Source: Rhea pennata
Lineage: Eukaryota > Chordata > Aves > Rheiformes > Rheidae
DNA length: 64,000 bases
Direction of reading: 5' to 3'
NCBI RefSeq assembly: GCF_028389875.1
Contig: NC_084666.1
Location: 66,596,422 to 66,660,421, forward strand
Below, one piece after another: positions 1,920-62,219 of this stretch. A program made the position numbers and the translations under genes. How positions within the stretch are numbered: the first letter of the stretch is position 1; each line of letters begins with the position of its first letter. A model generated the notes under the pieces. It worked only from the letters and a program-made list of their open reading frames with translations. It did no database searches and was not told the origin of the DNA.

Positions 1920-3540
1920 CTGCTCCGGGCACAGTCGGCTTTTCCTCTGCCCCTTCCCCAAGCCGCAGCAGGCTGCACGGCGCCCGCGCGAGGTCGCCCC
2001 GCTGAGGGGGCTCGCTGCAGAAATGCGTCGCCTTTCCCACCGCGGAGGGTTTCTTTTCCGTCTCGCGGCCGAAGGCAGCGGCACGGGGGAATCCTGCAGG
2101 CCCTTACCGGCGGGCAGGCGGCAGCCGCACCGACCCCCTCCGCAGCGGTGCGGCAGGAGACCGCTGCAGACGGGGCTGGGATGCAGTGCCCTCTTCTCGT
2201 TCGTGTCTCTGTCCCCAGGTTGAAGTGAATCAGGGAAACCTGTGCGTCCCAAGTGGCTTCCGACGTAATGAAAGTCAATTAGAGCAATTAAAATGGAGCT
2301 GATAACTGCAGGTTTTCACCACCGACTCTGCGTTAAATGTGTACTCCGTGTGGCTTGCAAGTAAGTGAAAGTGCGGAGAGAGGAAAGGATCTTCTTTTTA
2401 AAGCAGTTAAATTGCCTCTAATTAGCAACACAACTGTAGTCAAAACATAATGTGAGGATAATAAATTGATATTTGCATAATGGAAAAGCTACCAAAATGT
2501 ACTTCAAATAAGCTGAATTAGATTATAATTAGCACAGTGTTTTGGGAAAGAAAATCCTTCTAATTGCCTGCGTACAGTCCGTGCCAGCGAGGAGAGGTCT
2601 CGCAGCTGCCAGGAAGTCAGGGGGGCCGTTTGCAGGATGAACGTGCGGCGAGCAGGGGGCCAGGCTGTGGGCCGGTGCCGGGGTTGCGGGGCGCATGCCT
2701 GCGCCTGCCCATCGCCAGCGGCCCCAGCAAGCCGGGTTCGTGGGCAAGCTTGCAGCTGAGCTGCCAAAAACAGCGATGTGAAAACGAGATCACCGCTGAA
2801 AAGCCAGCCCTGCGCGTGCTCGGGGCCTGGGTCGCTGCTGTTGTCCCCACGTACGCGGTGACGGAGGCGAAGGCTGTTGCCTGCCCCGGCTGTGCCGAGA
2901 GCTGTGCAAACACGCGAGGGGTCGGGGCCTGGGTTTTGGCCATCGTTCAAAGGCTTTTGTGTCTCGGGCTGAGTCTGCGCTAGACAGGTTTGTGCTGGCC
3001 GAGAAAGGGAGCAGCCTTTACAGCGACGCGGCCGACCCTTGCGGCTGCTCTGGCTGGACCAGAGATTAACACTTGATGCTGAGTGGCTCCAAGTGGCAAC
3101 TTTGGTGGGTTTTTTTTTCTCTCTTAATAGAAGAAAATAACAGAAAAAGGTGATTCATGCAAATACAGCTAACACCTGCTGGCAACCTTAATCTTTACCC
3201 TAGGCGCCTCCCGGGAGCCGCTGCGGCTGACCCCACCGGCTGGTGGCGAGAGCCGTCGCGAGGGAGCAGCCGGTGCCTGGAAAATCCCAGGGCGCTCTTG
3301 GTTTATCTTTCCCGGCCAAGAACCGCGGAGGAGTCGCCGGGCTCGAGGCAGCAATCTTGTCTTTCTCAGCAAACAAGGACAAGCCCGGGAGAGGAGTGGA
3401 TCGGCTGGTTTTCCTCTTTTGGTAATGGAGAGAGCAGGAGCACGTTTTCCTCGCTAGCTTTTTTTCTTTTATCCGAGGCCAGGAGGAGGATGCTGGTACA
3501 CCGGAGTGCACTTGCAGCCTGGCGATTTGGGGGAACATTG
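1920..3540. promoter_or_regulatory. Cluster of CpG-rich patches around an AT-rich core
   Basis: Three CpG-rich patches (about 1,920-2,225, 2,570-2,960 and 3,200-3,540) are separated by AT-rich DNA. Long open frames on both strands occur here, but several frames are open at once, which is typical of GC-rich non-coding sequence. No splice-supported exon was found. The arrangement suggests a distal regulatory cluster. The stretch 3,600-6,600 shows nothing I can identify. Confidence 0.3.
2270..2540. promoter_or_regulatory. AT-rich block with homeodomain-type motifs (candidate conserved non-coding element)
   Basis: This AT-rich block between CpG-rich patches carries several TAATTA/CAATTA core motifs (for example near 2,276, 2,287, 2,417 and 2,525) and a TTTGCATAAT octamer-like match near 2,472. 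Such clusters are common in vertebrate developmental enhancers. There is no open frame of note. The enhancer role is inference; no conservation data are available here. Confidence 0.3.
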
Positions 3541-6500
3541 CACCCCAGTAAACATGCCTGGAAAAGAAAGACGCCTTCTAACGGGTGGTTTTCAGTTCAT
3601 TTGCTTCTGACGATAGAAAGTCATAACTGGATAGAGGATATATAAAATTCGAGGTAGTATAGGTAGGTGCATTTACTTCTGTGTTACGAATGGACATATA
3701 AATACGGATTTTGTTCTGCAGTTTCTTCAAGAGCAAAACTTTGAGCACTGTTTGGCCATAGCTCCCTACTGCATGTCAGCCGGGTGCCAGGGCTCACAAC
3801 GAGACCTGAAACCTTTTGTGGAGGGACGTCCCTGCTTGGGACGGGTTCCTCACAGAGCCCTTGCTCTCGCTGGGGCCCTCAGGAGACTCCTCGCGTGGCC
3901 CCTGCCTTCGGCAGTTAACTTTGGGGGACATCAGGCTAGCTGGCAGCCTAGACGTGCGACGTTCGTAACACCTTAATGGTGCCAGCCCTACCTCCCGGCT
4001 TGGAGCTGGTTTGTCGCCGCCTTTCATCTTCCACCTGTGATCCCCTAACGAAATAAAGCAACTTTCTACATCTTTTAAAATGCTGAATTGAGACTGCCAA
4101 CTAAATGGGAAAAGTTGTTTCCAAATATTGATTTCAGCTTGCTTAGTAACAGGTTTCAAAGCATTTTTGAGCTGAGTGACTCCTGCTTTTATCACACTCA
4201 GAATGTATCCTGAAAACACAGCTTAAATAATTTGTCATAATATTTGGTCCCTCTTTACTAACTGCTTGGTGCTGGGTAGGAAGCATTGAAAACAGAGTTA
4301 TTTACACCAACGGTCATTTGGCTTAATTAAGGGGTTTTGGCTGGTGGAATAAACATCTAAGAGAAGGGAATTCAGGCATTTCTGTGGCCCAAGCACAAAG
4401 GAAAACGCTCACAGAGAGGGAGATGCTGGAAGCACTGTTAACACCAAAGAAATGGTGTGAGGCACACTGTTGCAGATTTCCAAGAAAAAGGGAAAGAAAA
4501 TCAATAGTTGAGGTATCAGCCACGAAACATCCTTGCTCTCCACGGCTTCCAAGCAAGCCCTGGCTCTGCTTTTGCTCCCACGCTGGTCAGGTGCCGTGCG
4601 TGCTCCGTTTTAACAGCACACCGATGTGCCTGGCTGCTTTCTGAGAGCTGCTCACCTTGGAACAGTTTCAGTGCCACGTTTTACTTACTGAAGAGGTGCT
4701 GCCCTGGGAAACAAGCTTCCAGGGGTTGAACGGAGTGATTGCCGTTTGCGGAGCTCAGGAAGTGCCCGCTCGCCTGCCCTGGCCGTGGGGTCCCCCCTCC
4801 TCTTACAGGACGGTGCCCCAAAACCGGGGCTGCTGCATGGCTCTACAGGAAAACTCTGACAAAAGGTAGGCTGGATATGAACGACAGCACCAGCTGGTCA
4901 TTGACTTCGAGATTATGTTTCGCTGGGTGGTACTGAAAGAAAACCCAGGGGAAAAAATGTATGGAAAATAAATCTGGGGTGGGAGAAATCGGTTTCTCAG
5001 TGAGTTGGTGTAACGATAAAAATTGTTGTGTAAGAGCTAGTTCTGTAAGTTGCGCTACACCCGTGAACATCTTTCCCTGGTGAAGTATTGGCCCAGAATT
5101 GAATTGCAATAGCCTTCTCCCACTGGCGCTTGATAACTGGCTATATTACCTCAGAGGGTTTTTTTTTTTCCTGTCAAAATATAATGCGAGGTTGCTCTTG
5201 ATTTATTTTCCAGCTTTACTGCTTCTTGTCAAAAACCAGGCAACTCGGAAAGCAATTGGTGCAACACTGGGCGGTAAGTCACTCAGCTGTTACGTGAGAT
5301 CGGGTCCGCCGGGGAGGACGGGTGTGGACCTAATGAAACTGCAGTGGAGGTGAAGGAAAAATGTAGTATTTGGACATGCTTTTTGTAGTGAATGAGAACA
5401 AAGGAACTGCAAAATGAATAATATGCTGGCAGCATGTCTTGTCGCTGAAGCTAAGGCAGCGTGAACCTTGCTGCGAACACGTCGCTCTGACTCCGGTGTC
5501 TCGCAGCCCGTGTCAGTGAGCACCGTGGACAAGGCAGGAAAGCTTGCCAGAGCGAGCCAGGTCTCCGCACAGAGCCCCGGGGGGCCCGTGCCGGGCTCTG
5601 CACAGCCCTCCAACGCCGTTGCCCTTCAGACGGGAGAAACGTCATACCTCAAAAACTGTTTTCTGGAGGTGGGTGTCTCTGGCTTTCGCTGAGCTCCCCT
5701 GGGCAGACTTCAAGGAATTCAGCCAGTCTTCAGCATAATGTGATTTTTCTTTGCTGCTGAAGGCACATTTCTCTGACCTGGTGCCTGTGGGTGAGAATTT
5801 GAGATACAGCAGTACGTGCATGAATCGTTGCCAAGAAACTGCTTCACTTGTATCAAACCTGGGGCCATTCTGTCATTTTGTTATAAACAAATAACATGGC
5901 ACCAGCTGTGCTGCTTTCATCCAAGCACGCACACAATGCAAGGCAAAAAGCAGCCTGCAAACCTTTGATGTTGCCACCCTACAGCACCATAAAGAAAGCT
6001 CTGACAACCATTATTTTTGTTTCCTCATTGCCTTGGAGCTTCATATTATCCAAGCTAATGACAGACAATCTCATAGCATGCAGCCGTGTGGAAGGAGCCT
6101 CACAGCTTGCCCATTAAGCACCAGTAACAGTACTGCAGGAGGTGTTTAACCTCAGAGGTCTATTAAAACACAAGGTCCTCTAGAAGCAAAGCAGTTTCTG
6201 TTTGTTTTTGGTTTTGTTTTTTCTGGTATCAGTGTGTCCATGCAGTATGCAGGATAAGTGCATGTGGAGAAGTGCATCAGGAGACTGAAGGTATTGTATT
6301 TTTCCTGCTCGAGATACAAAGAGAAGTAAACCACAGGCCTGAAACAAATGTCCATTGCACTTAACTGATGTGTCTATGTGTATGTATGAGACACATAGCA
6401 TAGGTCTAGTTTTCAAATCAGAGAAGAGGATTTACAGCTCATATATGCTTGCTGTTCAAGAAAAACTTGGGTATGAGACATGATCCGGGGCTAACCTATG

Positions 6501-7269: not shown

Positions 7270-7620
7270 GCACTTTCTGCTAAATGTAATTACTCCCACT
7301 GTGGCTTTAAACTGAGACCACCTTGAAAATGAAGGCAGTTTCCGCTAAATTTAATTACATTTCCCTGAAACTGGCATGGTAATGGTACAGCTGATAAGGA
7401 ACGGTAGCTATTAAGTGAGGGCATTATTTATATTTTCTATTAAATCACTGTTATTTCTATTATAAGTGACATCATGCATATATCATGCTGATTTACAATG
7501 ATAAAGCTTCAGTCTTGATCATTTATTGCAATGCATAAATACAGCATAAAATACATGCAACACAATCGACAAATTAACACCGTATCAAGCCCCAGATCAA
7601 TATTTGGACCTAATATTAGA
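7270..7620. promoter_or_regulatory. AT-rich block near the 3' end of the minus-strand Sel1-like gene
   Basis: The block is AT-rich and dense in short motifs such as TAATTAC, ATGCATA and AATTAAC, with no coding potential. It overlaps the expected 3' end of the minus-strand gene whose stop codon is at 8,204-8,206. It may therefore be the tail of that gene's 3' UTR, a conserved non-coding element, or both. The interval 6,600-7,170 contains a 186-codon open frame that I do not accept as coding. Confidence 0.3.
7522..7527 (-). terminator. Candidate poly(A) signal of the Sel1-like gene
   Basis: TTTATT on the plus strand reads AATAAA on the minus strand, about 680 bases past the stop codon of the minus-strand gene. 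It is the first canonical hexamer I saw downstream of that stop. If used, the 3' UTR runs from 8,203 to about 7,500. A variant signal closer to the stop cannot be excluded. Confidence 0.4.
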
Positions 7621-8203: not shown

Positions 8204-11200
8204 TCAGGGAAGATTTCTGTTCTTGAGAATATTTTCTAAAAGTTCCTGAGCTTCTTGGAGCCCTTGGGCTGCAGCCACACCAAGGAGCTTTTCCACTTCC
8301 CTGGAGGACATAAAGTCATTATCAGGAACATGTAGAAAGAAGTTTCATTTGCTCCTATATGATTTTTATCTACCTAGGCTTTTTTAAGAGGACCATAACT
8401 ACTTCTGTAAAGTCAGTTCTCCATTATTCAGAAAATTACCTAATTTTCTTTCTGCTTTTCCCTGTCACCTTTGTATGTATGTTTGCATTTTGGTGATCTT
8501 TTCAATTTAATTGAATTGCAATAGAGATGAATTTGGAGCTCTCAGGATACATACTCCTCATACAACTGAACCCATGAGCCCACCTGACCTAATACACAAC
8601 ACAGATCTAAATGAAACATGGTGGTTTCAAGTCATAGGGTTTGCACAAACATTGTTTTTTCACTTCCAGTTAGCTTAAGTTTACTCTCCCCAAGCTCAAT
8701 TTTAAATTTCAAATTAGGAATAAACTTTAAAAACTCAGAAGAAAAAAAACAGAAAAATGATTAAGTTTCACTTTGGTGTAGGCAAGACAAGTCATCTTTG
8801 GCTATCTGATCTTGCTGGGAACATGTGTGTGCAGCTCAAGTATGCATAAGTGCATCAGAGTAAGAAAGATGTGTCCTGAGTAGCTTCAACAAAACCCATT
8901 GGAAATCAAAAGAAAACTTTTAACTGGCTTCCCTAGACTTAAAGGAGGGCAAGAAAGTGGTGCCTCTGAAAAGAAAGACTATTCTTTCTAGCAGAAAATT
9001 TGCGTGCATCTTCAATAGCTCTTTCTATACCAGTATGATTCTCACCGACCCTCACTCCCCCTGGGAAATTACTGATGGAAATACATACACAACCAGATTA
9101 CAAGCATTTTAGGTACCGTGTCATCTAATTTTTAAAACATCAATGGGCTAACCCAAGGGGTTTTGGCTTTCTAGCTACAGATAGAACTGCATTACTGACA
9201 ATATAATGATAAGGCATTAAAATGCTTGGGTAGCAACACCTATAGAGACTGGTATTGGATCACCACCCACTCGGAAAGAACCAGCAATTCAGCTGCAAAG
9301 GAAAAGAACAGGAACAGTTAACATTACCCTTCTTCAAGTGCCATCGTCATGTTTTTGAGTGCTCCCACTGCCAGGTTAAAGGAGGAGTGTGGATGGCCCT
9401 GTCCTGCAGCTTTTCTAAAGGGAGGAAAAAGAGGAGGAAAGAAAATGATAAGAGAAAATGCAGAAGAAGAAAACCTTAGTTTGAATATTTTCAAGTAAGG
9501 TAAGCGCAAACAAGGAGAAGGGTATGTATAAATCAGTATCCTGAAATGACCGCTTTAAAATTGTCAGGCCCTGATTTGGGAAAGGCACTAAGGCTTCGGT
9601 GTGTTACTGAGTATGGATGGCCTTAAAGATGCCTTCCTGGTTCACAACCCCTGGTGTCACAGGCCCAGTTATTTTAGCCCTAAAGATCTTGCAGCTTTAT
9701 GCTATCTTCTTTCACCTTGTTTGTGCCTTAACCAAACGCATCTGAAACATCTGACATGCCTCTCTCTCTCGGCTTTTTGTGCAGAACGGAAAGCCTGTCC
9801 TTCCCATTTCTCAGCAGGAGCTGAAGGGCGCCTGGGCTTGGCTGAGCTGCCCGTGGGTGTCAGAGGAAGAAGCCCCAGCTCTCGCCAGGGATGCAGCTAC
9901 CTCATGCAGCACTGCAGCAGGTACCGCAGCAAATTCACGTGCTGGGGACAGTTGCCTCATTTACATGGCAGAGACCTCCTGTGAGCGTACACAAAGGGTG
10001 GGAAATTCATACACTGCTGCTTTTATTTTCTGTTGCCTAAAGCAGCTTCTGTCCCCTTCCACTCTTAGGCCAGGTCACATTTCCCTGCTGCTACCTGTGG
10101 CTGAAACCTCCCCAGGAAGGCTGCACTGGCCAACACAGTCATGGCAGCACCGATATCCCTCTCCATCAACACACTTTGCCTCCCACTGATTTAAAAAATA
10201 GCAACAGCAGATAGGGAAAGCAGTGAAGCACCTGGCAGCAGTCAGGCGCGATGGGTCTCCCTCCTAACACCCCATGCTGCATCACGGGACGGGTTGACTC
10301 AGCTCTCTTTGCAGGAGGCACTGCTGCCTCTTCTTCCTCCTCTCCTCCCCCAGGAGAGAGCTAATTGCCATGTTGGGAATTGTTTATTCCCGCCTCACCT
10401 GAACCAGTGCATGGCCATGTCCTCATTTTTTTCCACTCCAGCTCCTAGATATGAGACAAAGAAAAGGAAGTGAAGTAATAGTTAGGATATGAAATATGAT
10501 ATCCAAAATAGAGCAGTGTGGTAATGTGCCACAAAGCACGGAACCACATTTGTGTTTCTTTTTTATACACACCCATACTCTGACACCAAGTTAAGCTGGG
10601 CTTGGAGAAATATTACCTTTCAAATATCTCTGTCCCACAAGGTGCTGGGCATTGGGGTACCCCAGATGAGCATACAGATGAGCCACATGGAAATGGAAGT
10701 TCTCATAACACAGCAAGATGTACAGCAGGAGGAGGCCAGCGATGACTATAGCTGACAACTGCAAAAGAGAAGGAGAGTCTTGATGTAAGGAAAAAAAAAG
10801 AAGCAGGGGACCAGTTACAGCAAATATTTCATCTAAACTTTAAGCCTCCTAAAGCTATTCCCCCCAAAAAATGGGAAGAGAGCCTCACACAACAGCAAAA
10901 AATCAAAGTAAGCTTTAATACAGAGCCAGTTCCAACACCCATAAAGCCAGCAGAAAAAACTGCACTGACTTCAGTGAGCAGTGGATCCAGTCTCTAGTTA
11001 ATACTGTCTTTAGCTCTGCTACAGCAAAGGAAACTACAATCGTTTTATTTTCTAGTGGTCCTCTTGAAGAAAAAAAAACATAAGCCAGCATCAGACTTCT
11101 TTGGGCAGTTCATCAAGAGAGTTTGTCAGAATGAGTCTTATTCCCCAGGCAGATGAATCTTCAGCCCATCACCTTTTCACAGCTAACTGCGTCTCCACTG

Positions 11201-14200
11201 TATGAGTGTGAAAGCTCCCTTTATAAACTTCACCAATTCATAAGTCCTTTCATCATGCATTACAGTGAGGGTGCTTCAGAAACTTCCAAACTCGACAGTA
11301 GAATAACCTTGGGTCTGAAACTCTTCTTGCATCCAGGGTATAAAACAGTGAAAAATCTGTTGTACTACACCTGCAGAAAAAAAGGTCTGAGACCAGAATC
11401 AGACCAGTTACTTTTTGATGCCAAACTGTATTTTCTTTTTCCAGTGTGCTACCTGTAGGTTTCTAGTGAAGGAGCTGGCAACTCAAGCAACCGCATCTTA
11501 GCAAGGGACGGAGATCCCGGGCCTAGGAAAGAACATCAAGGTTTATGGAGAAGCCCTACAAGCTGCAAATGGAGGCTACCTGTACAATCTGCAGAGAGCC
11601 ATTTGTCTCCACATTGACTTGCAGTATGAGAAAGTCAAACATTTCACTAAGAGTGCCGGCGTTACAGATGTTAAAATCCTTCATTGGTACATGAGGCAAT
11701 AGAGGCCACACGCTGACACTGAGTAGAAGACATCGGTCTTTGAAAATAACAACGGCGGTAAGCGCTGCTCAAGTTTCCCAGCGTGAACGTGTGCTGAGAG
11801 AAACCCCACTGATGGCATACAGACCGCTGCAAGTTGCTGATACCTCATCCTTGAACTCTGCAGTTTCTAAGTAGTGCTTACTCCTGGGGGTCTAGTTTTC
11901 AGGGGGACGTGCGAGAGCACACGCAGGCTAGGTATGTATCACTGTCCCTCTTTTATGGATGCAGGAACAGAGCGGTTACGAGCAGCCTCATTTCAATGCC
12001 CGAGTCAGAAACAGAAAGAGGCTGTTGTCCCGACTCCCCGTGCGCATGGCTGTGGCTGTCACAGAATAAGTGTACTTTTGTGTTCACGCATAATTTATTG
12101 CTGCAGGTCTTTGTAAAGACTTACTACAGCACGTATTTGAGTTTGCTACGTGTCGTTCTCAGAATGAGCCAAGGCTGCAAGAAGTAGCTGAAAAGGATGA
12201 TGCGATGCAACAGCTTTAAGGTTCAGGGATGTGTCTGGTCATTACAGATGGTTTGATGTGACTGACGTGGAAGGGAGCAAAAAGCAACCACCCCCTTTTG
12301 GGGGAGGGTTGGCACGAGAAGTGTGTTCAGACCCTGCAGAAGCTGCCATGCGTTTAGCTCCTGATCTGCTTCTAGACTGGCCTGAGAGCTTGAGGGCAGG
12401 AGGAGCTTGGATCCAGTGTTTCCCTGCGGCTTCCAGAGGGTTCCCATGCTTGTGCTGTGTCAGCCACTGAAGACGGCTAGTGACCAAGATCTCGTCTCCT
12501 AATTGAGACCCAGGTCCTCATTCAGGCCCATTTCTAATTGGGAATAAAAAGTGCTGAGAATTAAATGAACTTCACTAATTAAACTAATTAGTTAAAACAG
12601 GTAAGCAATAATTGCACGAAAATCCCCCAAGATTCATTTTTTGGCTGGCAAGCCTAGGGATGTGAGGCTTTTACTGTTCTGTTTCAGATTCCCCCATTCA
12701 GCTAGTGCGATGTTCCCTCTCAGACAGGGATGATCCCCAAATGTCTTGACAAAGAAAGCTCTTTGGAAGGGCAACGGAAACCTGCAGAGCCTGAAAACAC
12801 TGAAAATACGTAATATGCGGTAAGCCACAAGCAATTCCAATGGGAAATACAGATTACAGATTGACCCAGTTATTGCTGAAGGCTTTTTGTCTCCCTCCTG
12901 AAAAAACAGTAACGGCTAGAAACAGGACAAAAAGCGCTCCTTGCTCGAGACGTTGTTGATTTTAGGGCTTCTGCTCAAGCAAGGCTGAGGGCAGATCTCC
13001 AGTGTCTGCACACCAGAGACGAGGCCGCCACGGAAAGATGCTCTTAGCACCCAGGCTGCCGCCGGGTGGGAGGGGAGCGTGCGGCGAGGGGAAGGCAGCG
13101 TCTCAGAGCAAGGACAAAGGCTGCTGAGTAAGAGCTGCCACGTGTGATGGCAGCGGGCTGCGTGCGCAGCCTCTGTGAAAGCGGGGGGGAGAGTGGCAGG
13201 GCAGGCTGGCGCAGGGCTCGGTGAGCAGACGGGGAGAAGGGCTCTCCGAAATCACGCTCGCCGGGGGAAGGGGGACGGGAGTGCCGCGTGTCAGAGCACA
13301 GCGCTCCACCTTTGCAGCTAGAGACTGATCTTATGCTTTAATTGCAGTATGATTTTTCTTTTTGTGCATTAGCTAACACTATTACTATGATATGTTGTCA
13401 TTGTTACAGTGTCTAGGGCCTCAGTATTTCAAAAACTGTTTCATGCAATTGCACAAGATATATTGCAAAGTATTACAAGGGCTGATGATGGTTTTATTGC
13501 ACTAATTTGGGGGCTGCATGATGCTTGCAGCTGTGATATTTTCTTTACATGTTGCACAGGATTGCCTGAATTATGAAGAAAGAACTAGGAAATGTCACAA
13601 ACAACATTATGTTTGAGAAGAGCTTTTGTGGAACACTCTGTTGTGAGTCTGGTATGAAAAATAAGCCCAGGAAAGCAAACAGTGATGGGCTATTTTTAAA
13701 TTGAAGTGGAAAAGAAAATCTTAGGGCCATTTCCAAATGCTTATGCTAGGCTGCCCTGTTGGAGGCATTGCAGAAACAGTTCAAGCTTAGCCAAGCCAAG
13801 GTGGTCAGGCTATGTCTTTATACAGCTGATGAGTAAGAGCGGAGATGCCTGTGAGCCTCCCTGAGGCTCGGTAGCTAGACAGCTTAACCCTTGGCGCAAC
13901 CCCCCTGCAGCTGTGGGATCCCATTCACGGGTCTCCCTTATATTTTCCCCTAGCTTGCTTATAACACCAGGAGCATTCAGCAGCATTAGTGAGAGGTTTT
14001 GTGCTGCTTCTAGTCTGCTAACACTTTCCTTGTCATCTCTTCAGGCAATGCCACAGGCATGAGTGTCCCTCATGCCTCTGCCTGTCCTGTGCAATGCTGC
14101 TAGATATCATGCCAGCCTTGTGGTGCCCACGCTGCACTACTTGGCTGCCTTGCAAGGAAGGCATGCGTTTCCAGTGTGTTTCAGAGCTGCTCAGACTCCT

Positions 14201-14671
14201 TATCATCTGCAAGCTTGTCTGCCAACCCACACGACCATGCCCATTCTTTCCCCTGTAGGACACATACAGGAAAACGAGGAGCCAAAGTTCTCCGTGCATA
14301 AACTAGGAAAGAGCACTTGTGATTCTCCTGCAAACCAGGAAGGCTTGAAGGGCCAGAACCATCTGCAAAAAGACTAGCTCTTTAAAGACATGTACATGCC
14401 AAAAGCAGCACCCCTGGTTGATGAGAACCAAGTGTGGTGAAAATCCTCCCCAGAAGTCAGCTGCTAGGGAAACTCTATAGCAGTCAACATGTGCCCTCAT
14501 CATGGAAGTACATCATGGCACAAAAGTCTCATTGCAGGGCACCACCTATCCACAGCAGTGTCTGTTACGGTCAGATGCCCACTGCTGGCAGCGATCATGT
14601 TCACTGCTATGGTGATACAATGCCTGGCTCCTCAGAGACAGATGGCATGGGAATTGCCACATGCCCCCCCT

Positions 14672-14707
<36 letters not shown>

Positions 14708-17225
14708 TCTAATGCTTTTTTAACAGGGCTGCTTTCAGCTTTTTACCATTGAGTAGGCACTGTCACAGGTTGCCAGTGAGAGCTCTCACTCACAAGCAGT
14801 TCCTTTAGAAATGGCTTACTGAGCAGCCCTAGGTTTTTTCTTTTTCTCACCTGTCTTTCTTTTCTTTCTCCATCTTTCCTTCTTTTCCTTCCCCTAAACC
14901 TTCCTAAAGGGCAAGGAAGTGCCCCCTAAAGGGCAAGTGGTGTTTGCTAAAAGCCAAGGAAGACCTAGACCTATGCATGGCAAAATGTAGGCACACTAAA
15001 TGCGGGAGTGTAATGATCCCAGCTGCAGGAGGGTGGCACACAATTGGTCCTCGCTTGGCTGCACATCAACATCTAAGCAAATATCTAAAAGCACACAGCC
15101 ACTCCGACAGTGAGTAGAAGAAACAGAGATGTTGCCACAGGTTTTCATCAACATCTAACAAAATGCTCCTTTTCCCTGTGCTGGGTACGTGGATATTCCA
15201 GTGTTCCCATAAATGTTCTGCCTATTCTGTTTCAAATGTATGAAAGAGTTGACATCTTTGGATCTTGTCACTCTGCTTTTTCCTCAGGTCACCTCTGAGC
15301 CAGCTTATCAGCAGGTTTACAGATGGTTGCTGCCAGGCCGGACAAAGCCAGCAATAAGAAAGCTATGTATCCTGTGGTGGGCAGTGAGACCTCTGGTAGA
15401 TAAGCGGGTGACCATTCAGCCTCTTAAACAAAGCTGTGATGGTTTTGTTGTGCATGACTCCTAAAGTCAAAGACTAGGAAAGAGGGGAAATGCAATAGTA
15501 TTTCTCAAAAGCATCCACTGGTGAAGGGGTGGCACTCTGATGTGAGATTGCACCTGAATGATGGAGGAGGGAGGTGCAAGTTCCCACATTTCCTTCAGTT
15601 CCCCTTTCCTTTCCTGGTTATCTGCAGCTCTTAGCCCTCACAGTCAGTGTTAGGGATTGAAGGTGCGGTACAGAGCACCCTTGCAGAGGTGGTTTGACGC
15701 TGTATGGCTCGTGAGAGGACAGGCAGTGGCCCAAATGCAGATGTCTTTGTGGAAGTGCAGCACAGTGCCCTGGAAAAGGAAGGTTTCACCTACATTTTGG
15801 AAAAAGGGGTTGGGGGAGCTCATTTAACACCAGCTGTCCCTGAAAGCAAGAGCTCCTCAGAGACTGCAAATTCAGAAATGTGGGAAGCTTATTTGTATCC
15901 CCCTAAATAAAGGTGGGAGGTGAGCCACTGGCCTGAAACCATCTTCTGAGGAACATCCAGATACTCATTTCCAGCCTTTCTTTCCACAGTGACTCATTTA
16001 GAAAGCAGTCTGCATGTTCCAGACCTTGCATCGTTTAGCTGCTCTAAAGCAAGAGAAAGCCCAGCGGTACCGGTGGGATTATACACAAGATCGGGTGGTT
16101 TGGGAGTAGAATTAGCCTAACATAAATACGTAACTAACTCTATTTCTCTCATGCACACTTCCTAAATCCAGAAAGAACAAAATTCACACTGGTTAGGTCA
16201 GAACTGGAGCCTAAAGAATCACACTATGAGCAGCCAGATCTTTTGGGGCAATAAAAGACAGTGAGAGGCTTTGCATCCCTCCCCTCCTGAGACCTGGAGC
16301 CTGGACCCAGTGACGCCGCTTTAAATCCTGTCTTGCACTGGAGGAGGAAATTTGGCCTCTCCAGAGACTGCCCTTGTATCAGTGCCAGGGCTCAGAGCTG
16401 TCGTTTTTTCCTGAGCAGTTTCAGCTGCTTGGTCTGCACCGTTACCCATATGCCACAGCTAGGCAAACGGGAACAAAATCATGAGCATCACCCTTCACAG
16501 AATGCCCTTAAAAAATATATGTATTACCTGTAATGGTTGTGTTGGAAGATGCCAAATTACTGCACATGAGCAAATGCCCCTGCTCCCTAAGCTTTGTCTG
16601 TATTGCAATAACTATCTTCAACACATTCCCTGTGTCTGTAAACAGAAGACCCCAGGGACTTCGCAGAGGCTTCAGTCATTTACAATCCGGTCCACACAAG
16701 GCCGTGATGCTGAGAAAGGAAGTGCAGGATTCAAGTTTGAAGCACTGTGTATACAAGAAGCTTCCTGTGGCTTCCCAAGAGGCTCCAACCTCCTCTGGCG
16801 TCAACGGGTTTCACAGGCTGCATCTCTCCCGTGCACTCACACCTCGTTGCAGGATCCCGCTCCACCTCTGCCTGGTGGCTGGTTTTACTGCTCACGGGCC
16901 ACAGCAACGAAGACAAGCAGCTGACCTGGAAGCAGTGCTGTGCGCCGCAGGCAGACGCCTGGCGCCCCGCTGCTTCGGCTGTAATCGCGCAGAGGCAGGC
17001 AAAGCTGCGGGGACCTCATCCAGCCGGGGCACGGCGCACAACGTAACGCTCTGGGCTTGCGCTCCCAGCAACGACCCCTGGCTGCACACTTACCTCCCAC
17101 TTGCTCCACTCGGGACGAGAGAGCTTCCTGCTCCTCCGAGACAGGCTTGTCTCGTAGGTGGGAGCACCGCCGTCCTGGCTCCTTCCTTTCCGTTTCCGCG
17201 GCACCACGGGCTTCGTGTTTCTCAT
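8204..17225 (-). CDS. Uncharacterised single-pass membrane protein with Sel1-like repeats (five exons, 167 aa)
   Basis: I read five minus-strand exons: 17225-17094, 10758-10617, 10444-10399, 9414-9328 and 8300-8204. All introns are GT..AG and the frame stays open across every junction (phases 0, 1, 2, 2), giving 504 nt, or 167 residues plus TGA. The ATG at 17225 follows an in-frame TAA at 17339-17337 with no other ATG between. The first donor is GAG|GTAAGT inside a CpG-rich exon. Residues 1-44 are basic (RKRK at 10-13, SRRSRK at 29-34). Residues 45-62 form a strong transmembrane helix. A textbook Sel1-like repeat follows (about 80-113: LVGQRYLKGAGV, then MHWFRKAAGQG), then a second (about 115-149, ending GVAAAQG). 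Basic residues before the helix suggest a type II signal anchor. Sel1-like repeats are helical protein-binding modules; the partner and function here are unknown. I do not recognise an ortholog. An additional in-phase exon inside the 6.3-kb first intron is possible. Confidence 0.85.
12490..12625. promoter_or_regulatory. Candidate homeodomain-site cluster in intron 1 of the Sel1-like gene
   Basis: This AT-rich stretch contains TAATTGAG, CTAATTGGG and the near-palindrome TAATTAAACTAATTA at about 12,577-12,591, followed by GTTAA. Paired TAATTA cores are classic homeodomain binding sites. No open frame or repeat explains it. The function is inferred from motif content only. Confidence 0.3.
13020..13310. 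promoter_or_regulatory. GC-rich patch in intron 1 of the Sel1-like gene
   Basis: A CpG- and G-rich patch sits alone in an AT-rich intron. It could be an alternative promoter or enhancer. A 68-codon minus-strand frame spans it, but it has no matching donor and is low in complexity, so I do not treat it as an exon. Confidence 0.25.
13320..13560. promoter_or_regulatory. Motif-dense AT-rich block (candidate conserved non-coding element)
   Basis: It contains TTTAATTGCA, ATTAGCTAAC, CATGCAATTGCAC and TATTGCAAAG, which resemble homeodomain, POU and C/EBP sites. It has no coding potential and is unlike a transposon. It lies in intron 1 of the minus-strand gene, next to the GC-rich patch at 13,020-13,310. 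A regulatory role is inference. Confidence 0.3.
14674..14706. repeat. Poly(T) tract of 33 bases
   Basis: An uninterrupted run of about 33 T follows a C-rich stretch. It could be the A-tail of an old minus-strand retrocopy, but I see no recognisable retrotransposon body beside it, so I call it a simple repeat. Confidence 0.8.
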
Positions 17226-17400
17226 CACTCCGTCTTGCAGAAGCTTTGGGCGCTTATGTCTGCTCCCAGTGTTCCCAGCACTGCCACCAGCCAGCCGCAA
17301 ATCTCTTGTAATAACTCGGTTATTCTTGCACCTGATTTATGCTGTTGGTAGCCCAGCTGCTTCACCAAGATAAGAAGGATAGATACACATCACTCACAGA
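16880..17400 (-). promoter_or_regulatory. CpG-rich 5' region and probable promoter of the Sel1-like gene
   Basis: CpG frequency rises over about 16,950-17,250, covering the first coding exon and donor of the minus-strand gene. There is no TATA box upstream of the ATG on the minus strand, so initiation is probably dispersed within about 17,230-17,400. The exact transcription start cannot be read from sequence. Confidence 0.45.
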
Positions 17401-20400
17401 GCCATGGAAGAGAAAATCCTCCTGCTGAAACCCTTTTAACCATTGACATTTAACTCTCTCTCTGCCAAATATGTCTCTTTAAAACCTTCCCTAGCTTTTG
17501 TGACAAAATGTTTTTTTTCATTTGCAAGCCATCACCAGGACAGGTGGGTCTTTGTATTGACAAATTTGACTAAGAAAGAAAAGGCTATTTATTTTTCTTC
17601 TTTCTGTTTTTTTTTTTCTTATGAGAAGGAGATTGCTTCACAAATAATGATAATGTTATTCACCCTTGCAGATCTTTAGTATCTTTTCATTTAAATTGCC
17701 TGGTCTCCACTGGGCTATGGGGTCCGTTGTATCAGGCTTTGGACAAACACAAGAAGGTGCAGGCCCTGCACCAGCCGATTTGGGGAAAAAAACAGAAAAA
17801 GTGCTAGTTATCAGACCATACAAAACCTCCACAAAGCTCAAGAGGATGAGTTGGGGGGGTTTTGTTTGTCTGGTTTTTATTTGATTAGAAAAGATCTTAC
17901 TTGTCAGAGGTAGTCATTTTATAGCTAGATAGTTGTGTTTTTGTTTTTCTGAAGTTACACCCTCTGGTGTTACTGGTACAGACAAATCAGGTTTACCTTC
18001 ACAGTTAAGAAAACATGGTTTTAGCACAAGATACCTAATGCCTGTTGTCTTTCCTGCTCTGAAGTGGTAGTTGAGGATCTGAACTGAATGGCAATTAGAC
18101 AAGATCAGTCTCATGCAAAGTTCTGACCTTGCCCAGTTACCTGATAGTAAAAAAAAAAAATGTTTTTTCTCTCCAATTTTTAGCAAGATAATGGTTGTGC
18201 TATCATTTTACAGACAACTCCACCCTTCACGGAAGAACAAGGATGCCTCTTCAGCAGTGATGACTCAGCCTAAAAATGTTATTGAAGAGGAAACCCTTCA
18301 TCATTTTGTATTTTTGGTAGGATTCTTATTTCTTATGTTATACTGCCACCACTGGGACAATTTCATTTGTTCAATTGCAGCCACATTACATTTTACAAAA
18401 TTTATATCCATTCCATGCATGACCCTGCGTATCATTTTGATCAAAGGGCAAAGCATTTTCACAGTATATTTATTTAATTGGGTGCTAATAATCAGGATTT
18501 GTTGCTTTTGAGTGCAAATCTCTGGTTTAGGAAAAATGAAACAATTCAGAAATTTCTAAAACAAGTCCTGAAGAGAAGGACCTAGGTTACAGCAAAGAGC
18601 AAGGAAGAGATGAAAGCATATGTAAAATCTAATACCTACTTACCTCTTTCTTTTCTTTAGCTACAATTGTTAGAATTTAAAAATAAAGGGGGGAAAAAAT
18701 GTTCTCAGGGAGTCATCATTTTGGGAAATGAACTAGCCTGTAGCTGCAGAACCCAAATTCTGGCATAAGTGAGCTCTTGCAAATATGTTTCCTTTCTGAA
18801 GGATTAAATCAAAAAGCCTTATGCACAAATAACCCTCAATGGACAAAAACTGGGGAAAGGAGAAGGCTGAGATGAAAGAAAGTCAAATACTAAAAAGTGT
18901 AAGAGCTGCACTATCTGTGAAAGTAGCTGTATTTCACTTTTAGTAAATGTGTGGAATCTCATATTGTTCACAAACACATAAATTTCATGTTGTTCAAGAA
19001 GATGCTATTTAACCAGTTTAACAACAAAAAGCCTACCCTCATTTCCTAAATGGCATATTATTGTAAATGTGTATGTGTAAAAGTTATATTCATACTGACA
19101 CAAAACCTAGCTTTATGAAATCAGTATTTTTCTCTGTATGAAAGATGACCTGGTGCTTCCAGTTCTTTGTTGCAGGTGGCTAGAAAGGAGAACATGTTAA
19201 TATTAATCACACATTACTCGGTGAGGGGTATGCTGTTTGTGTCATAAATCAGTTTCTATACAGATTCTTATTCCAGCAGTGAGTTTGATCTACTTCTCTG
19301 CACAACTCCGCTGATACCATGAGTAAAAGGTAAATCAGGATGTTTATCTAGAAACAAATACTGACTGCATTGTAGCCGCCTTCTACCAATGGAGAAGAAA
19401 TTGGACACTTCTGTCTGCAACGACTTTGGCAACGAAAGGACGAGCCCCCTAGTGAATTTTCTCTCTGCTGTTCCAAGGGCAGATGGCATTTCTGTTTTCC
19501 CTGTCATCTTCACAGAACAAGTTGTGAAGAACCATTTCCAGCTCCTACAAATGGGCATTTTGATTGAAAACCTGGAACCAGCAATATTCAGGGAAATGCA
19601 GTTTTCCTCCTGTTTCTTTTTCATGGAAATTTTTTCTCTTTTTCTCCTTGCTGCATTGAAGTAGTCAGGGCCAGAAGCAGTTAGATACTCCATTTCAATT
19701 GAAAGATGGATGGGAAGTGTTGGCAGAAGAATGGGTGGCAGTGAATATAAAGAGTTAATAGGACAAGGTCAGCCTTTGGGAGAGCTGCTGATTGGACTGA
19801 AGCCCTGGGGAAAAAGGAAAGGAATAAAAAATACAGGATTGCACTGAAAAACAGAAGTGAAACTCTGTTTTCATCCTTTCTCATTTGATTTTTAAAGTTT
19901 GCTACACTTTGCTTCAAATTAACTATAAGCTGTTTAGCAAACAGAGTGATTGAAGAAACATAATTATTGTTATAATATATGAACATAATATATGAAACAT
20001 AATATATGAAAGAATGAAGGTTATAAAACCAAAATAAGATGCACTTGTAACACATTATCAGTCACTGTTCAAACTAAATACATTGATTTCACCACCTCAA
20101 ATACAGACTGTTTACAATGCAGGCTTAGTCTAAGTGTGTTAATGGATTAAACAACAAGAAGTGATTAGTCTGAGAGAGTATTTTCAGGTTGCTTTATAAG
20201 GAAAGAAATTGATACAACTGACATGTTTCTTTGGTATAAGCCTATTTAATCACAGTGTCCTCTGAGCATAGATGTCGTAGACCAAATTAGATCCACCTCG
20301 AGACTTCCACAGCTTGAACACAGTTTGAGCAGGTTCTCCAGTACAGCTTTATACAGCAATTCAAAATATGGCATAAATATTACATATTTCAGCTACCATA

Positions 20401-27924: not shown

Positions 27925-29856
27925 ATGGTGAGGAGCCGCGTGGGGCAGCGGAGGGGGCGCGGGGGCGCGCGGCCGCGCCGCCTCGGCGATGGCAGAGAGC
28001 GCGGTGACCCGGCGGCGGCCGTTGGGGGAGAGGGCGCGCGCGGGCGGCGGCTGAGGGGGGGGCGGCGCGCGCCAGCAGGCGTTTTACCTGCCGCAGGCGG
28101 CGGACAGGGGCGGCGGGGGGGCGCGGAGAGTCGCACGCGCACTGGTGCCGCTGGGGAGAGGGAGGGGCTGCGGCGCATGCGCACGGCGGGCGGCCTGTGC
28201 CGCTAGGTGTAGCGGGCAGAGCGCAGGCGTGGTGGCGCAGCGCGTGCCGCCCCACGGCGGGGGAGGGAGGAGGGACGAGGAGCGCATGCGCGGGCGGGAT
28301 GCGGTCGCCGCCGCGCGGCCCGTGCCAGGCAGAGACGGAGGGTTGGAGCCGGGTGGCGGGTTAGCGCTGCTGCCGGTGTGTCTGCGCTCACACGGGTCTC
28401 TCCTCTTGGTTAGGCTGGAGGTAAAGCTGGGAAGGACTCTGGAAAGACCAAGACCAAAGCGGTGTCCCGTTCTCAGAGGGCTGGCTTGCAGGTGAGCAGA
28501 GCCTGGAGCGTGGGCAAATGAAAGTCAGCTTGGCCTTCCATGTCCAGCTTGTACCTTGTGAAACCTGGGTAGCCAGTGTCTTCTGTCCATTGGCATAAGG
28601 ATCAGTCTGGTGCTTGAGTATGTTAGTGTTTGGCTCAGCCATGCTCTGAGCTTCTGTACGTCTGTGCTGGCAGAATTGCCTTGTGGTTTTGCTCCTGCTG
28701 GAGGTTAGACTTGTGAAGTTGCTGATGTGGGCTGGGGAGTACAGCTAAGGACACTGTGTGCCAGCTATTGAAATGTAGACTTCAATGATACACAGCACTC
28801 CCAACACTAGAATTCAACTAGTACCAGTTGCTTATGCTGGACAACAGAATTTCTGCAGCAGAAGTGCTTTATGATACTGCTTTTATTCTGTCTCTGTGGT
28901 GACAGCATACTCATATTTCTGTTTTCTTTCAGTTCCCTGTTGGCCGCATCCATAGGCATCTGAAGTCTAGGACTACCAGCCATGGGCGTGTAGGAGCTAC
29001 AGCTGCTGTGTATAGTGCAGCAATCCTAGAGTACTTGACAGCTGAGGTAAAACTGCTGCAAGTTGGTCAGTCCAGTTGAAATGGTATAATGACCAGTCTC
29101 CCCTGTACTTTGCCAGTTTGAACTGGGTTGTGACTCTTCATTTGCTTTAAGCCTGTTTTTTGAAGTACATGCTTCCTAAGGAGTCTATGAAACACATATG
29201 GAATGTTCTGCTCTGCATTTTGTGCAAAGCAGGTAGCTGTGGCTTATAACAGAGGCATGTGTGAAGTGTTTCATAAAGTGTACAGTTACAGCTTTTTCCA
29301 TTTGCTGCAAAACATCACCCTTTCCTTGGGGAAACCTGAATCCAAACTGCTAAAAGAGGAGCTGGTTAAAAGATGTACTGTTTGGTGTCCTCATGTCACT
29401 GAGCAGTTGGTGTAGAGAAGAGAACTAAAGCCATGTAATTGTTCTCATTTGACTTGCTTAACTCAATCTAAAAATGTTCTTGTCTTCAGGTTCTGGAGCT
29501 GGCAGGAAATGCATCCAAAGACTTGAAGGTGAAACGTATCACTCCACGTCACTTGCAGCTTGCAATTAGAGGAGATGAAGAATTGGACTCTCTCATTAAG
29601 GCAACAATTGCTGGTGGTGGTATGTAACTTGCTGTCAACCTTTGTGTTAAGTGGCAAGAAATCCAATAGTGTTAAAGGTTGTTCTTCAAATTCTATTTGA
29701 AGTGCAAAGCTTAGAGAAATCATTGAAGAGAACTAATGTGTGTGGTTTTTGTTTTTTTTTTTTTTTTTTAATTCTTGGTATTGCTCTTTCTTAGGTGTAA
29801 TACCACATATCCACAAATCTCTCATTGGAAAGAAAGGACAACAGAAAACTGTCTAA
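27925..29856 (+). CDS. H2AZ1: Histone variant H2A.Z.1
   Basis: Coding exons are 27925-27927 (the ATG alone), 28414-28491, 28933-29046, 29490-29619 and 29795-29856, all GT..AG, giving 128 residues plus stop. H2A.Z replaces H2A in nucleosomes at promoters and is deposited by SRCAP/p400 complexes. The product has the N-tail lysines, the histone fold and the extended acidic patch ([10 protein letters not shown]). It is Z.1 rather than Z.2: T14, S38 and the C-terminal V127 (mature numbering) are the Z.1 residues. One difference from the human protein as I recall it is threonine in place of alanine at mature position 12, between acetylatable K11 and K13. The ATG-only first coding exon is shared with the human gene. 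The gene sits head to tail with DNAJB14, whose ATG is about 1.7 kb past this gene's poly(A) signal. Confidence 0.97.
28173..28291. promoter_or_regulatory. Two NRF1-type palindromes in H2AZ1 intron 1
   Basis: Perfect GCGCATGCGC palindromes occur at 28173-28182 and 28282-28291, in the CpG-island part of the first intron. NRF1 binds this sequence as a dimer. Their role in H2AZ1 expression is inferred. Confidence 0.5.
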
Positions 29857-46800: not shown

Positions 46801-49800
46801 TTTAATGCTAATGAAATAGTAAGTGCCAAATATTGATGAATCACTACCTTATTTTGTATCAACCTAGGCTCTGCAAGGTGTGGTCCAAAGTAAATGATAC
46901 AGAAACTGAATTATTGAAGAGAAGGAATTTAGATCAGATGCTGAGACAGCAATTTCTTGAAACAAAAGGCTAGTATACAAGATAACTTGCATATTAAGTT
47001 ATCTGTTCTCGATATAGCTTATACATAATCCATGTCTTGAGGCTAAAGATGAAGGGATGTGCATTTACTTCCAAAATTTCAGCCTATCATAAAAATTATA
47101 CCCAGAGTATAATTTAGTGTATTTTCTTTCTTTTTCACTCTCTCTTGATGATGAATTCAGTGTTGTTTTTAGTTAGCTTTATCATCTTCCTAGCTAGAGC
47201 TTATTAAATGTTACTTCAGTGTAACGAACTATGTTTGTTTCACAGGATATTCCTGTTGGCAACTGCATGCATACATTCAATTCATTGCTCTTGGGAGCAT
47301 TACACAGAGCATTACACACTTCCATGAAAAGCTTATGTTATTTGAACATAGGAAAAAGGGATCCCTAAATAACTTGACTTGATCAGTCTGTGAACTCTGA
47401 AGGACCACACAAGATGGTGTGGTTGTATTTTTGGTGCTAGCATTCCCTTAATAATAGGGTGCCCATTCTTCTTTCAGGGAACTGTCAAAGGCTTGCTTAC
47501 CCCCTTTCTTTCCACCTGGCTGCCCTGTGCATAGTCTTTGTAAAACTAAACCCATATTTATGTACAGGTGCATGCATTTAAAAGATTGTTGAAACAATTG
47601 TGTCACTTTGAAGAAGCTCCCATTAACCTTTTAAAATATTTCTGGATGCAATTTCTCTTGCTTACTCAGAACAAATCTTTTCTTAGTATTTACTAAATGC
47701 AAGTGTGTTTGATTTCTGCAGTGTGATTCTGTGATCTATGTTTCTGAACTCTTACCTAGATAATTTGGTTTGACTTTAAGACATGCTTGTTGGTCTACAG
47801 TGGTTCTATAGTACAAGTGAAAGTAAAATAAATATAACCAATAAATAAGGTTTGAGAACGATAGTTTTTGTACTCAATATTGAGCTTATTATGAAGGAAT
47901 ACTCTGTCATTTATTTCTAGAGTGAATTTATTTGTATATTTTCTATTGAATGTCAGCAGCCAATATAGTATATTACTTCTTTTGCAGCTATGTTCCAACA
48001 TACTGCTTTTACATCTTTGTGGCTAAAATATTTTATTTCATTTTCTTTTGCAGTATAAAGAAATGTAAAAATTATTATGAAGTCCTTGGAGTGTCAAAGG
48101 ATGCTGGTGAAGAAGACCTAAAGAAGGCTTATCGAAAACTTGCTTTGAAATTCCACCCAGACAAAAACCATGCACCAGGAGCAACAGAAGCTTTTAAAAG
48201 TAAAATATCTTTCTTAAACTTTATGATCAAACTTTGGCAGAATAAAAGGAATTCATCTGCATTGGTCGGTTGTCTTTTTATAGAACTGACAAGGTAGTGT
48301 TTTGTAACTAATATTAAACTTACCTTTTTTGGTTCTGAACTAGATGTGTAGTATTACAGTACATAAACAAAAGACTTAGCAGAGGAATCTTGCTGACTAA
48401 AAATAATTACAATAAAAGTAGCATTTTTCTTATATTTAAATGTCATTTTTTATGGCTGAGTAAATTCATCACTTTAGTCTGGCTTTTAATGGTGCCTGAT
48501 GAATTTCCAACATCCTACCTGAGAAAAGCAGTTTCCTAATAATATCTGAAGGAAAAGATATTTCTTTTAAGGAATCATCACAATTAAGAATAGAATTGAG
48601 TTTGGTCGTAGGCAAGGATACCTGCTTAGATCTTGAGGTTAGGTAGTACTACTCATCTGTTGTATTAAGCAGTCGTCCTTGAGGCTATTTTTAGATTTTA
48701 AAAGTATATACAAATAAAATCGCATTTAATCTCTTGAAATCTTTGTATTAACTTCATCAAAAAATCTTTCAAACATTTGAGCAATCTTTTTTTTGGTCTT
48801 TAAATAAAGAAAACTATTTTTTTAATCAGATCTGTTTTGAATTAGTATTAACTAATCAAAAACATGTAACCAACAAATAAATAGTCAAAAAGGGTTGCTT
48901 TTAATTATGGACCATACTGTGAGAGTGGTTTCTTTACTTTATTTGCTCTCAACAGATTATTGTCTCCCTAAATTCTTAATTGTTGAAAAAGCCCTAAATT
49001 TTTAGTACCAATTTTATCCTTATGCTGAGTAACAGTAACTTTGTAACAGTATTTGGTGTCATGAGTGTGTAACCTGCTCCCAGTTTAAGTTACTGTGCTT
49101 CATTTCTTTGGGCTTTTTTTCCCCACTTAAAGGAACTATTAATGATAATTTCTAAGGTCAATTTAAAAGCTTAAGCTAAGCTTTAGCTAAGACTCCATTC
49201 ACTTTTTTCAATTGGATAATGTTGAAAACGTGAATTGGATGGAGCCATAGTCTTATTTGTCGGTGATGAGGTTTTAGTGGTGCACCTTTCACCAACTTTT
49301 GATGACTGATGGCCTTTTGGCACTGAAAAACTTAATTCCTGTGACTTGTGTTGATGGGCTGCAAAAGAGAAGCCTTTTGTTGGAGAGACAAGGAGAAGAG
49401 GAAGAAAGAAAAGCAGAAAGGGTCTTAATGAAGGTATGACTGAGTGAAGATTATTTGTCAAGTGTCAGCAGAAAAGTTCCTTAAGTCTGCAAAAGCTATG
49501 TGTCTCTGCATAGTAGTTAGGGTGAAAGCACTTTTGAGTCTCGTAAACTCAGCAGAACTTGTGGTCTTTTCACACTGTTTCACACTACCTATGCGCACCT
49601 ATCCAAGTTTTCCTCTTGCTGCTTTCAAAATCCAATAAATTAGTCTGTGATAATATGGCATTAATGTACTGGGGCAAGCATCCAGGCCAGACGTACCAAA
49701 CATTAAGGTTATTTCAACAACAGGAACGTGTCGTTTGACATGTGAACAGGAACAGTCCTGTCATGCGTTCATGTTGTATTCTTCATGTTACATTATGCAA

Positions 49801-60237: not shown

Positions 60238-62219
60238 TGAGTGAACCAAGGTTTTTGCATGTGACATTTTCAAAATACTACCAGATGCTCACATACGAGA
60301 ATTTTATGGGGAGCTCCTTAAGTGTTACTCTAGTATGACCAAGTCCCTTACCAAATTGCTACATCCTGTATTTAGGAAGAGGCATAGATTCTCATAGAGA
60401 TCTGCCTTTTTTTTATAGAGCTTTTCCTCTGTGATTTGCAAAATTGACTTGTATCTGGTTATTCTGGGTTTTTTTTGTAGACCTCACAAGACCTGTATGT
60501 TCAGAAATGAGCAAGTTTCAGCTGAGCATCTTCTTTATTATTCTGAAGCTCTAGTATTGGTATCCAGACAAAATCTCATCAGTGCTCAGTGTGCAGCAGC
60601 TCTCTTCAAGAGAAGGAGCACTGTCAGATGCGCAACACTGTTTGAAATCTACTGCTATGATCCTAGATTCTGATACAAGGGGAGTTTTAACATAGATACA
60701 CAGTTACCATTTTCACTCGGTGAGCATCTAGTGGATGAATCTTCCTTGTTTCCTCACCTTAGTTTGTTACATTACTAGTCTGCAGGTGCATGGCTCGAGG
60801 GACTAGATCCAAAAGTAGGAGTACATTTACAGGACATGAGCATCTTTGGAAAAGTAAAACTAGATGTAACTAGGCTAAGCAGAAATGGACATTTCATTTT
60901 TTGATCCTTAAATGCATGAGGGGGATTTTCCAAAACTGTTCTATTTTCACAAGTCTTCCTAGAAGATGAGCTGTGATGCTTAGTGGAAAAACAGAACTCT
61001 TGGTTTTGCTTGTTGTTGACCACAAGAGAAGAAACATCTGATTTCTATGAAAATAGCCAAACTTCCCAAAGTAGCTGATTGCAGACAATAGTTGTTTATG
61101 TTTTAATTCTGTTTTCATTGAAACTTGTGCAGCATCTTGTCTGGAGTTGTCATCAGTGTCCTAAACTGAATTAAACAGCTGGAGCCTCATGCATTGGACG
61201 GGAAAAGCCCAAGGGGCTTTGGGGATCGCAATTCAGGTTACAGCCACTTGTGCTCACAGAAAAGCACCAGGTTCCTTCCCTTCCTCTAGTTAAATCTGCT
61301 GCTGCCACAGAAATGCTTTTTCTGCCCAGATGGTGAAATAGGTAAATCGACCAAGCAATCGTAGGAGGAAAAGCTGCTGGAGAGGAAAAAAAAAAAAAGT
61401 GCTGATCTGGCTGGTGAAAAGTAGCTGGTAATCTTGCAGTAGCTTCTTAGCTGAATTTTGTAATCCTTACAGAGAAAATTTGAGATTTCAGACTCCCTTC
61501 TCAGTTTTATCGTCACTGCTAATGATAGGAATTTATTCCAATGTGTCTGATTTCTTCTAAGCATGATTTTTTTTAAAAAGTCCTTATATTTAGGATTATG
61601 CAAAGCGTGTTTTTTAAAGGCCTTTGCATGTATAATTTCCTTGGTCGGTATATAGTTTCTTTCAGATTCCAAGGTTCACTGGTCTCGGGGCCACTGTGAA
61701 TACGGTGCACACACGTGTATAGGTGTACAGATTTTTTCCGGCTAATATCGCCAATTCTGATTGTTTTATATATTTTTGCTGTAAGTTCGCACAGTGCAGA
61801 CAGTGAAAACTACCCGGCCAACTCTGACAGCTCTGGAGGCGATTCTCTTTAAAAGAAAGTGCGGTTTTTTTTTCTGGTGAGCGGGGTGTTTCCCTGGCAG
61901 GGCGGTTCCCGAGGTGAAGCGAGGCCCGTTTTCCTGAGCAAGCTCACGACGTGCAGTAGCATTTCTCCGCCAGTACGTGGCATTCTCGGCGTGCGGCACG
62001 TTGCTGGCGCTGCTGGCAATATTTGGGAGCCTGTGCCTGAGCTTGAAGTCCCTTTAAAAACCCCGGCGAAAGGGGCTACTCAGCCTTTTAGCGCAGGAGA
62101 CCCCCGGGAAAATTCAGTATTCTTGCACCGGGGAAAGCGGGTGCAGCCAAAGGGCTCCCCCGACGGGAAACGCGCTTCATCTCCTGCCGCCGCCGCCGCG
62201 TTTGGCCCCGCCGGCGCGC

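Follow-up and report, generated by a model that had tools for sequence, protein, structure and literature searches.

Described Sel1 proteins and the new locus

Sel1 repeats are helix-turn-helix units of 36–44 residues that take part in the quality control of the ER, in assembling the respiratory chain and in stress signalling (PMC11514114). In the account given in PMC4746701, SEL1L carries 11 repeats in three clusters, together with a fibronectin II domain at the N terminus and a membrane helix at the C terminus; motifs 10 and 11, which make up its two-repeat SLR-C, bind HRD1 at the luminal loop near that protein's N terminus. The relevant sections of PMC2827412 and PMC9570461 name only SEL1L and COA7 as chicken Sel1 proteins. 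The gene lists around human H2AFZ in PMC5774710 and PMC4028059, which are not exhaustive, include for example DAPP1, LAMTOR3, DNAJB14, EMCN and DDIT4L (the last printed once as Ddit4l2) and name no Sel1 gene. None of the titles and abstract openings listed by a search of open-access papers describes a Sel1 gene of the kind reported here. It is quite possible that automatic pipelines have already annotated the gene in birds, in which case the value of the present analysis would be that of a functional lead only.

We compared the predicted product of a five-exon locus with these proteins. The new protein resembles SEL1L, as that source presents it, in combining Sel1-like repeats with a single membrane pass, here predicted; the repeats are luminal in SEL1L and proposed to be luminal here. 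Residues 75–114 match SEL1L at E 5.3e-11. Unlike SEL1L, it has about one to two repeats following an N-terminal helix in a total of 167 residues. With one clear repeat and a helix at residues ~45–62, it departs from the roughly 11 repeats and C-terminal helix that characterize the SEL1L/Hrd3 family.

DELE1 also contains Sel1-like repeats and matches residues 74–158 at E 1e-4; it differs in that its presumed locus in the same genome is a separate one (L002, contig C14), where 35 of 36 Sel1 positions lie in one frame as against the two introns found here. LRP2BP shares Sel1-like repeats (residues 78–122 matched at E 3.2e-4) and differs in its location, its presumed locus (L003) lying on the contig of the new gene but about 32 Mb from it; it is not known to have a membrane helix. 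COA7 is, like the new protein, a short Sel1-repeat protein, but its repeats are cysteine-rich, as is visible at its presumed locus L001, whereas the Sel1 part of the new protein has no cysteine. COA7 (7mqz) is absent from the 23 distinct solved-structure sequences matched at E<=1, and the new protein does not group with it.

A five-exon gene model

The window, by which we mean the whole 64,000-nucleotide stretch analysed (G000:C4:66596422-66660421), contains zero N and belongs to a genome of 1.27 Gb in 180 contigs. Joining five minus-strand exons in this window yields 504 nt, that is 167 codons followed by TGA and uninterrupted by any internal stop. Each of the four introns begins with GT and ends with AG, and the exon lengths give phase 0 for the first intron, phase 1 for the second and phase 2 for the third and fourth. 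The open frame and the canonical junctions reported in the preliminary description are thus both reproduced exactly, and the observation of a spliced five-exon Sel1 gene is confirmed.

The coding part of exon 1 (17094..17225, minus strand) begins with an ATG at 17225 and comprises 44 codons of a basic N-terminal segment, with its phase 0 donor at 17093. Exon 2 (10617..10758, minus strand) encodes the transmembrane helix (about residues 45–62, nt 10758–10705) and the first part of the Sel1 repeat, and the 46-nt exon 3 (10399..10444, minus strand) encodes its loop and second helix. The repeat ends within exon 4 (9328..9414, minus strand; repeat end at nt 9393), which also starts a degenerate second repeat. 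Exon 5 (8204..8300, minus strand) contributes the end of this second repeat (AAAQGLQEAQELL) and the TGA stop. An AATAAA on the same strand (7522..7527), a candidate polyadenylation signal by consensus match only, lies ~0.68 kb past the stop and, at 7527, could mark the end of the transcript.

Sel1 homology is distributed over three exons

The joined protein matches the Pfam Sel1 family (PF08238) at E 2.1e-10 with 41.1 bits, above the curated cut-off of 30.7, bearing out the Sel1 assignment of the preliminary description. The match covers residues 79–114 and the full profile (positions 1–36) in one stretch, and Sel1 is the sole Pfam family matched at E<=1. NCBIfam gave 4 matches, every one far under its own cut-off. 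On the DNA, the matched repeat spans 9393..10656 of the minus strand (coordinates computed from the exon join) and is distributed across three exons; because introns 2 and 3 cut it, no single exon carries the repeat. Small multi-exon genes of this kind, here with coding exons of 46–142 nt, readily escape both visual inspection and single-exon searches.

Among the 23 solved-structure sequences, bacterial Sel1 proteins rank on top. The best, 6ok3, has a summed E of 5.2e-39 from 8 stretches, the strongest of which scores 30.9 bits, and the bacterial Sel1 protein 4bwr reaches E 1.7e-29 summed over several stretches. Three SEL1L chains are matched at E 5.3e-11 to 4.6e-12 (8ket and 5b26 at the two ends of this range).

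Two clear Sel1-like repeats had been proposed. The first, at residues 79–114, is clear; the second, at about residues 115–150, is below threshold and appears degenerate. Its best one-gap score is 0.1 bits; when the tail was shuffled 500 times, 35 shuffles scored as well, and a Pfam search of the protein tail alone returned zero families at E<=10. The ungapped alignment of both repeats with bacterial Sel1 proteins favours a second repeat. Judged by these matches, the five-exon locus seems to be a genuine gene that encodes a Sel1-repeat protein, an addition to the known Sel1-like repeat proteins.

Splice sites and exon choice

Splice sites were scored with approximate weights and ranked among the true GT or AG sites of the window's minus strand. 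The four donors, in order, fall at the 99.86, 97.7, 99.79 and 95.2 percentiles and the four acceptors at the 99.73, 99.43, 99.89 and 93.79 percentiles, the exon-4 donor and exon-5 acceptor being the weakest sites of the gene model.

We then asked how uniquely each exon is chosen. With exons 1, 2 and 4 fixed, the called exon 3 ranks first (62.0 bits) of 78 open, phase-matched AG..GT intervals. The runner-up, at 26.5 bits, is the same exon with an acceptor three bases on, and the next independent alternative scores 16.7. With exons 1–4 fixed, 233 of 627 downstream AG sites are open for 27 codons, and the exon-5 acceptor at 8300 ranks first among these 233 (5.5 bits, the next being -7.6). On the Sel1 match, the spliced scan described below and the exon-3 and exon-5 rankings taken together, exons 2–5 are well supported.

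Since exon 2 contains no in-frame ATG, the start codon must lie upstream of it. Candidates for exon 1 were required to share the frame, to have a donor above 4 bits and to lie within 27 kb; of the 31 ATG..GT stretches that qualify, the called exon has the strongest donor, at 11.6 bits. Longer candidates of 74, 50 and 48 codons have donors of 4.5, 6.5 and 4.1 bits, respectively. None of the sequence matches extends homology support to exon 1, and we regard its assignment, which rests on the strong donor, as likely but not proven. Exon 1 had also been described as CpG-rich with a consensus donor. The donor holds up well, but CpG density is only modest: positions 17001–17500 have a GC content of 0.54 and an observed/expected CpG of 0.66. 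Antisense to exon 1 runs a 272-aa plus-strand ORF (16533–17351) with zero Pfam matches at E<=10, probably a chance frame that we do not consider a gene.

Controls for chance matches

We scanned the sequence with a Sel1 profile allowed to jump introns of 60–8000 nt, scoring donor, acceptor and an intron penalty. The profile derives from 15 rows of bacterial repeats, taken from the solved-structure matches and picked by similarity to the query, and it accordingly leans towards the query; the Pfam score is independent of this bias. At the middle penalty the best window score is 61.5 bits, ending at 9393, the last base of residue 114. The plus strand reaches at best -1.5, all 100 dinucleotide shuffles of the minus strand stay below 61.5 (maximum 5.3, mean -7.8), and the maximum across 30 kinase loci from this genome (108,693 bases, read on both strands) is -1.9.

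Intron penalties of 18, 22 and 26 give 69.5, 61.5 and 53.5 bits for the gene locus, 14.5, -1.5 and -9.5 for the best plus-strand score, and 14.2, 5.3 and 1.3 for the best of the 100 shuffles. A scan with an overly cheap penalty also placed the Sel1 locus first, over a high background. Further high minus-strand scores of 24.6–45.6 bits, ending at 1843, 3028, 5602, 9149 and 2739, probably come from exons 2 and 3 joined to a different third piece. As positive controls, L002 scored 39.3 and L003 36.3; L001 scored only 0.8, so the spliced scan misses some real Sel1 repeats. By these controls, the Sel1 match is far beyond chance.

Codon usage

A codon model was trained on 28 of the 30 kinase loci of the same genome (5,917 codons; L037 and L040 were dropped for stops). 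The five exons score 0.155 bits per codon, where true coding sequence left out in turn has a median of 0.115 (range -0.077 to 0.784) and open non-coding sequence 0.016. As 20.8% of summed open null segments reach the five-exon score, the model does not separate the gene from open non-coding sequence; with a human codon table instead, 1.7% of null sums reach the observed score. In exon 1, a different open frame outscores the called one (23.5 versus 13.7 bits). The H2AZ1 exons also score low (4.4, 0.5, 4.8 and -1.9 bits), and we therefore consider the codon test weak rather than contrary.

Codon usage alone would not argue against a chain of open stretches chosen by eye. Such a chain is contradicted by the shuffles, the kinase loci and the exon-3 and exon-5 rankings, and even when the Pfam E-value of 2.1e-10 is multiplied by the 31, 78 and 233 alternatives for exons 1, 3 and 5 it is still ~1e-4; we consider a chance assembly extremely improbable. 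The indecisive codon scores, the degenerate second repeat and the two weakest splice sites would each also suit a recently dead or dying gene, a remnant that is still open but neither expressed nor constrained any more. In such a remnant, however, five exons would have to join without a stop, a frameshift or a lost splice site, as they do here, and the weak exon-4 donor and exon-5 acceptor still join where Sel1 homology favours. We consider decay improbable and prefer an intact gene that is presumably expressed.

Copies and relatives

A protein search of the same genome gave 6 matches at E<=10, of which 5 are the gene's own exons, exon 3 being matched at E 8e-4. The remaining match is weak (E 8.69) and carries stops. 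No retrocopy or close paralogue was found in this genome among the best candidates scored, and the gene is apparently single-copy as judged from these searches.

An unspliced genome-wide search for Sel1 found three other places and did not see the five-exon gene. L001 resembles COA7 (E 2.7e-66), L002 resembles DELE1 (E 6.8e-21, with a bacterial Sel1 protein scoring slightly better), and L003 is the presumed locus of LRP2BP. At each of them 35–36 of the 36 Sel1 positions lie inside one open frame, and none of the three thus shows the two introns that interrupt the repeat of the new gene. No SEL1L locus was recognised among the unspliced hits, which makes the genomic count of Sel1 genes a lower bound.

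Outside this genome, 12 pattern matches in viral contigs included no relative, and 48 pattern matches in bacterial and archaeal genomes included one, the locus L012 in a Verrucomicrobia metagenome bin, related in the Sel1 part only. Residues 81–160 align with this Verrucomicrobia Sel1 protein without gaps over 80 residues at 40% identity (E 1.7e-13), across three exon junctions including that between exons 4 and 5. Part of this likeness is selected, because the relative holds the 8-residue search pattern of exon 5, QGLQEAQE, through which it was evidently retrieved.

That the only relative among these genomes is bacterial, and that bacterial proteins lead the solved-structure matches, could be taken to mean that the locus is a bacterial contaminant or a recent transfer. 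We find this very improbable: the gene has five exons with spliceosomal-type junctions and was found once, flanked by syntenic vertebrate genes on a contig of 82 Mb, and the bacterial likeness is limited to the 40% identity of the Sel1 part.

Protein layout and proposed function

Hydrophobicity over 19 residues peaks within residues 43–63, the top segment being 43–61 (mean 2.29), in agreement with the transmembrane helix that had been claimed and here placed at about residues 45–62. Residues 1–44 contain 13 K/R and 4 D/E, and the part after the helix 9 K/R and 11 D/E. The sole cysteine, residue 61, is in the helix. The likeliest layout of the 167 residues, as predicted from these features, is a basic tail, one helix (~45–62), the clear repeat at 79–114, the degenerate repeat at ~115–150 and a closing helix; the repeats would presumably adopt the helical fold of the family.

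Applying the positive-inside rule to the charge bias suggests a signal anchor with a luminal Sel1 part. The helix would act as a single-pass signal anchor, with the basic tail kept in the cytosol and the Sel1 unit placed in the lumen just above the membrane. The single N-x-S/T site, NMT at residue 128, a possible N-glycosylation site, would lie on the luminal side. There the Sel1 unit may bind a partner protein, and the whole would form a miniature of the SEL1L SLR-C/HRD1 arrangement, a small membrane-tethered adaptor with one to two repeats. We consider it moderately probable that the locus is a real, intact, apparently single-copy five-exon gene encoding an N-in signal anchor with, by analogy with SLR-C, a luminal Sel1 adaptor. 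One to two repeats are few for a Sel1 solenoid, which counts against this explanation.

Alternatively, the basic tail could be a nuclear or mitochondrial signal. A real gene would then encode a protein of the mitochondrial or nuclear membrane that exposes its Sel1 domain to the cytosol or to the intermembrane space of mitochondria, an organelle assembly or stress factor comparable to COA7 or DELE1. The excess of basic over acidic residues in the tail would fit such a signal, two of the three other Sel1 places in this genome resemble mitochondrial Sel1 proteins (COA7 at L001, DELE1 at L002), and DELE1 itself is among the matches of the query. The match to SEL1L is stronger than that to DELE1, however (5.3e-11 against 1e-4), the Sel1 part lacks the cysteines in which L001 is rich, and a PRKRKGR-like tail is atypical of an amphipathic presequence. 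We regard an organellar destination as possible but rather unlikely, and retain the signal anchor with a luminal Sel1 adaptor as our preferred reading.

Genomic neighbourhood

The four matched pieces of H2AZ1 coding sequence lie at 28414..29853 on the plus strand, opposite to the Sel1 gene. They are followed on the same strand by DNAJB14, named from its sequence, with an ORF from 31849 and a J-domain-like ORF at 47950–48297. On the other side, the plus strand carries a match to the DDIT4/DDIT4L family (RTP801_C) at G000:C4:66578685-66579020, 17.4–17.7 kb left of the window start and with a single in-frame TAA; the name DDIT4L is given from family and position. The neighbour matches agree with the earlier placement between DDIT4L-side DNA and H2AZ1, DDIT4L itself being outside the window, and support a Sel1 gene located between DDIT4L and H2AZ1 and oriented opposite to both. 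The original interpretation is in sum partly supported: a membrane-helix Sel1 gene in this interval is borne out, two clear repeats is too strong a claim, and lineage restriction or loss in mammals is a possible reading.

A Sel1 protein other than SEL1L, COA7, DELE1 and LRP2BP beside a conserved histone gene would offer a well-defined case in which to test for the loss of a gene in mammals. Tentatively, and with considerable doubt, we propose an undescribed vertebrate Sel1 signal anchor that is present in birds in the H2AZ1–DDIT4L interval, absent from mammals, and acts as a miniature luminal adaptor of ER quality control. If this were true, part of the ER quality-control machinery would differ between birds and mammals. 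If the gene occurs in all birds and is absent from mammals, its partner would reveal a membrane complex that uses a Sel1 adaptor in one lineage only.

Several other features of the window were observed. Between DDIT4L and the Sel1 gene, positions 2001–4000 form a CpG-rich stretch (GC 0.52–0.61, observed/expected CpG 0.63–0.87) to which no gene is assigned. The H2AZ1 tail (28414–28491, plus strand) shows one A-to-T difference from the H2A.Z sequence GKAKTK, possibly normal for birds. In humans, the non-coding locus LOC256880 lies near H2AZ1. Finally, positions 62001–63000 of the plus strand form a strong CpG island (observed/expected CpG 1.03–1.25), in which ATGGCCGAC is followed at once by a donor-like GTAAGT, at 62519–62533; by its position and its M-A-D start, this piece may be the first exon of LAMTOR3.
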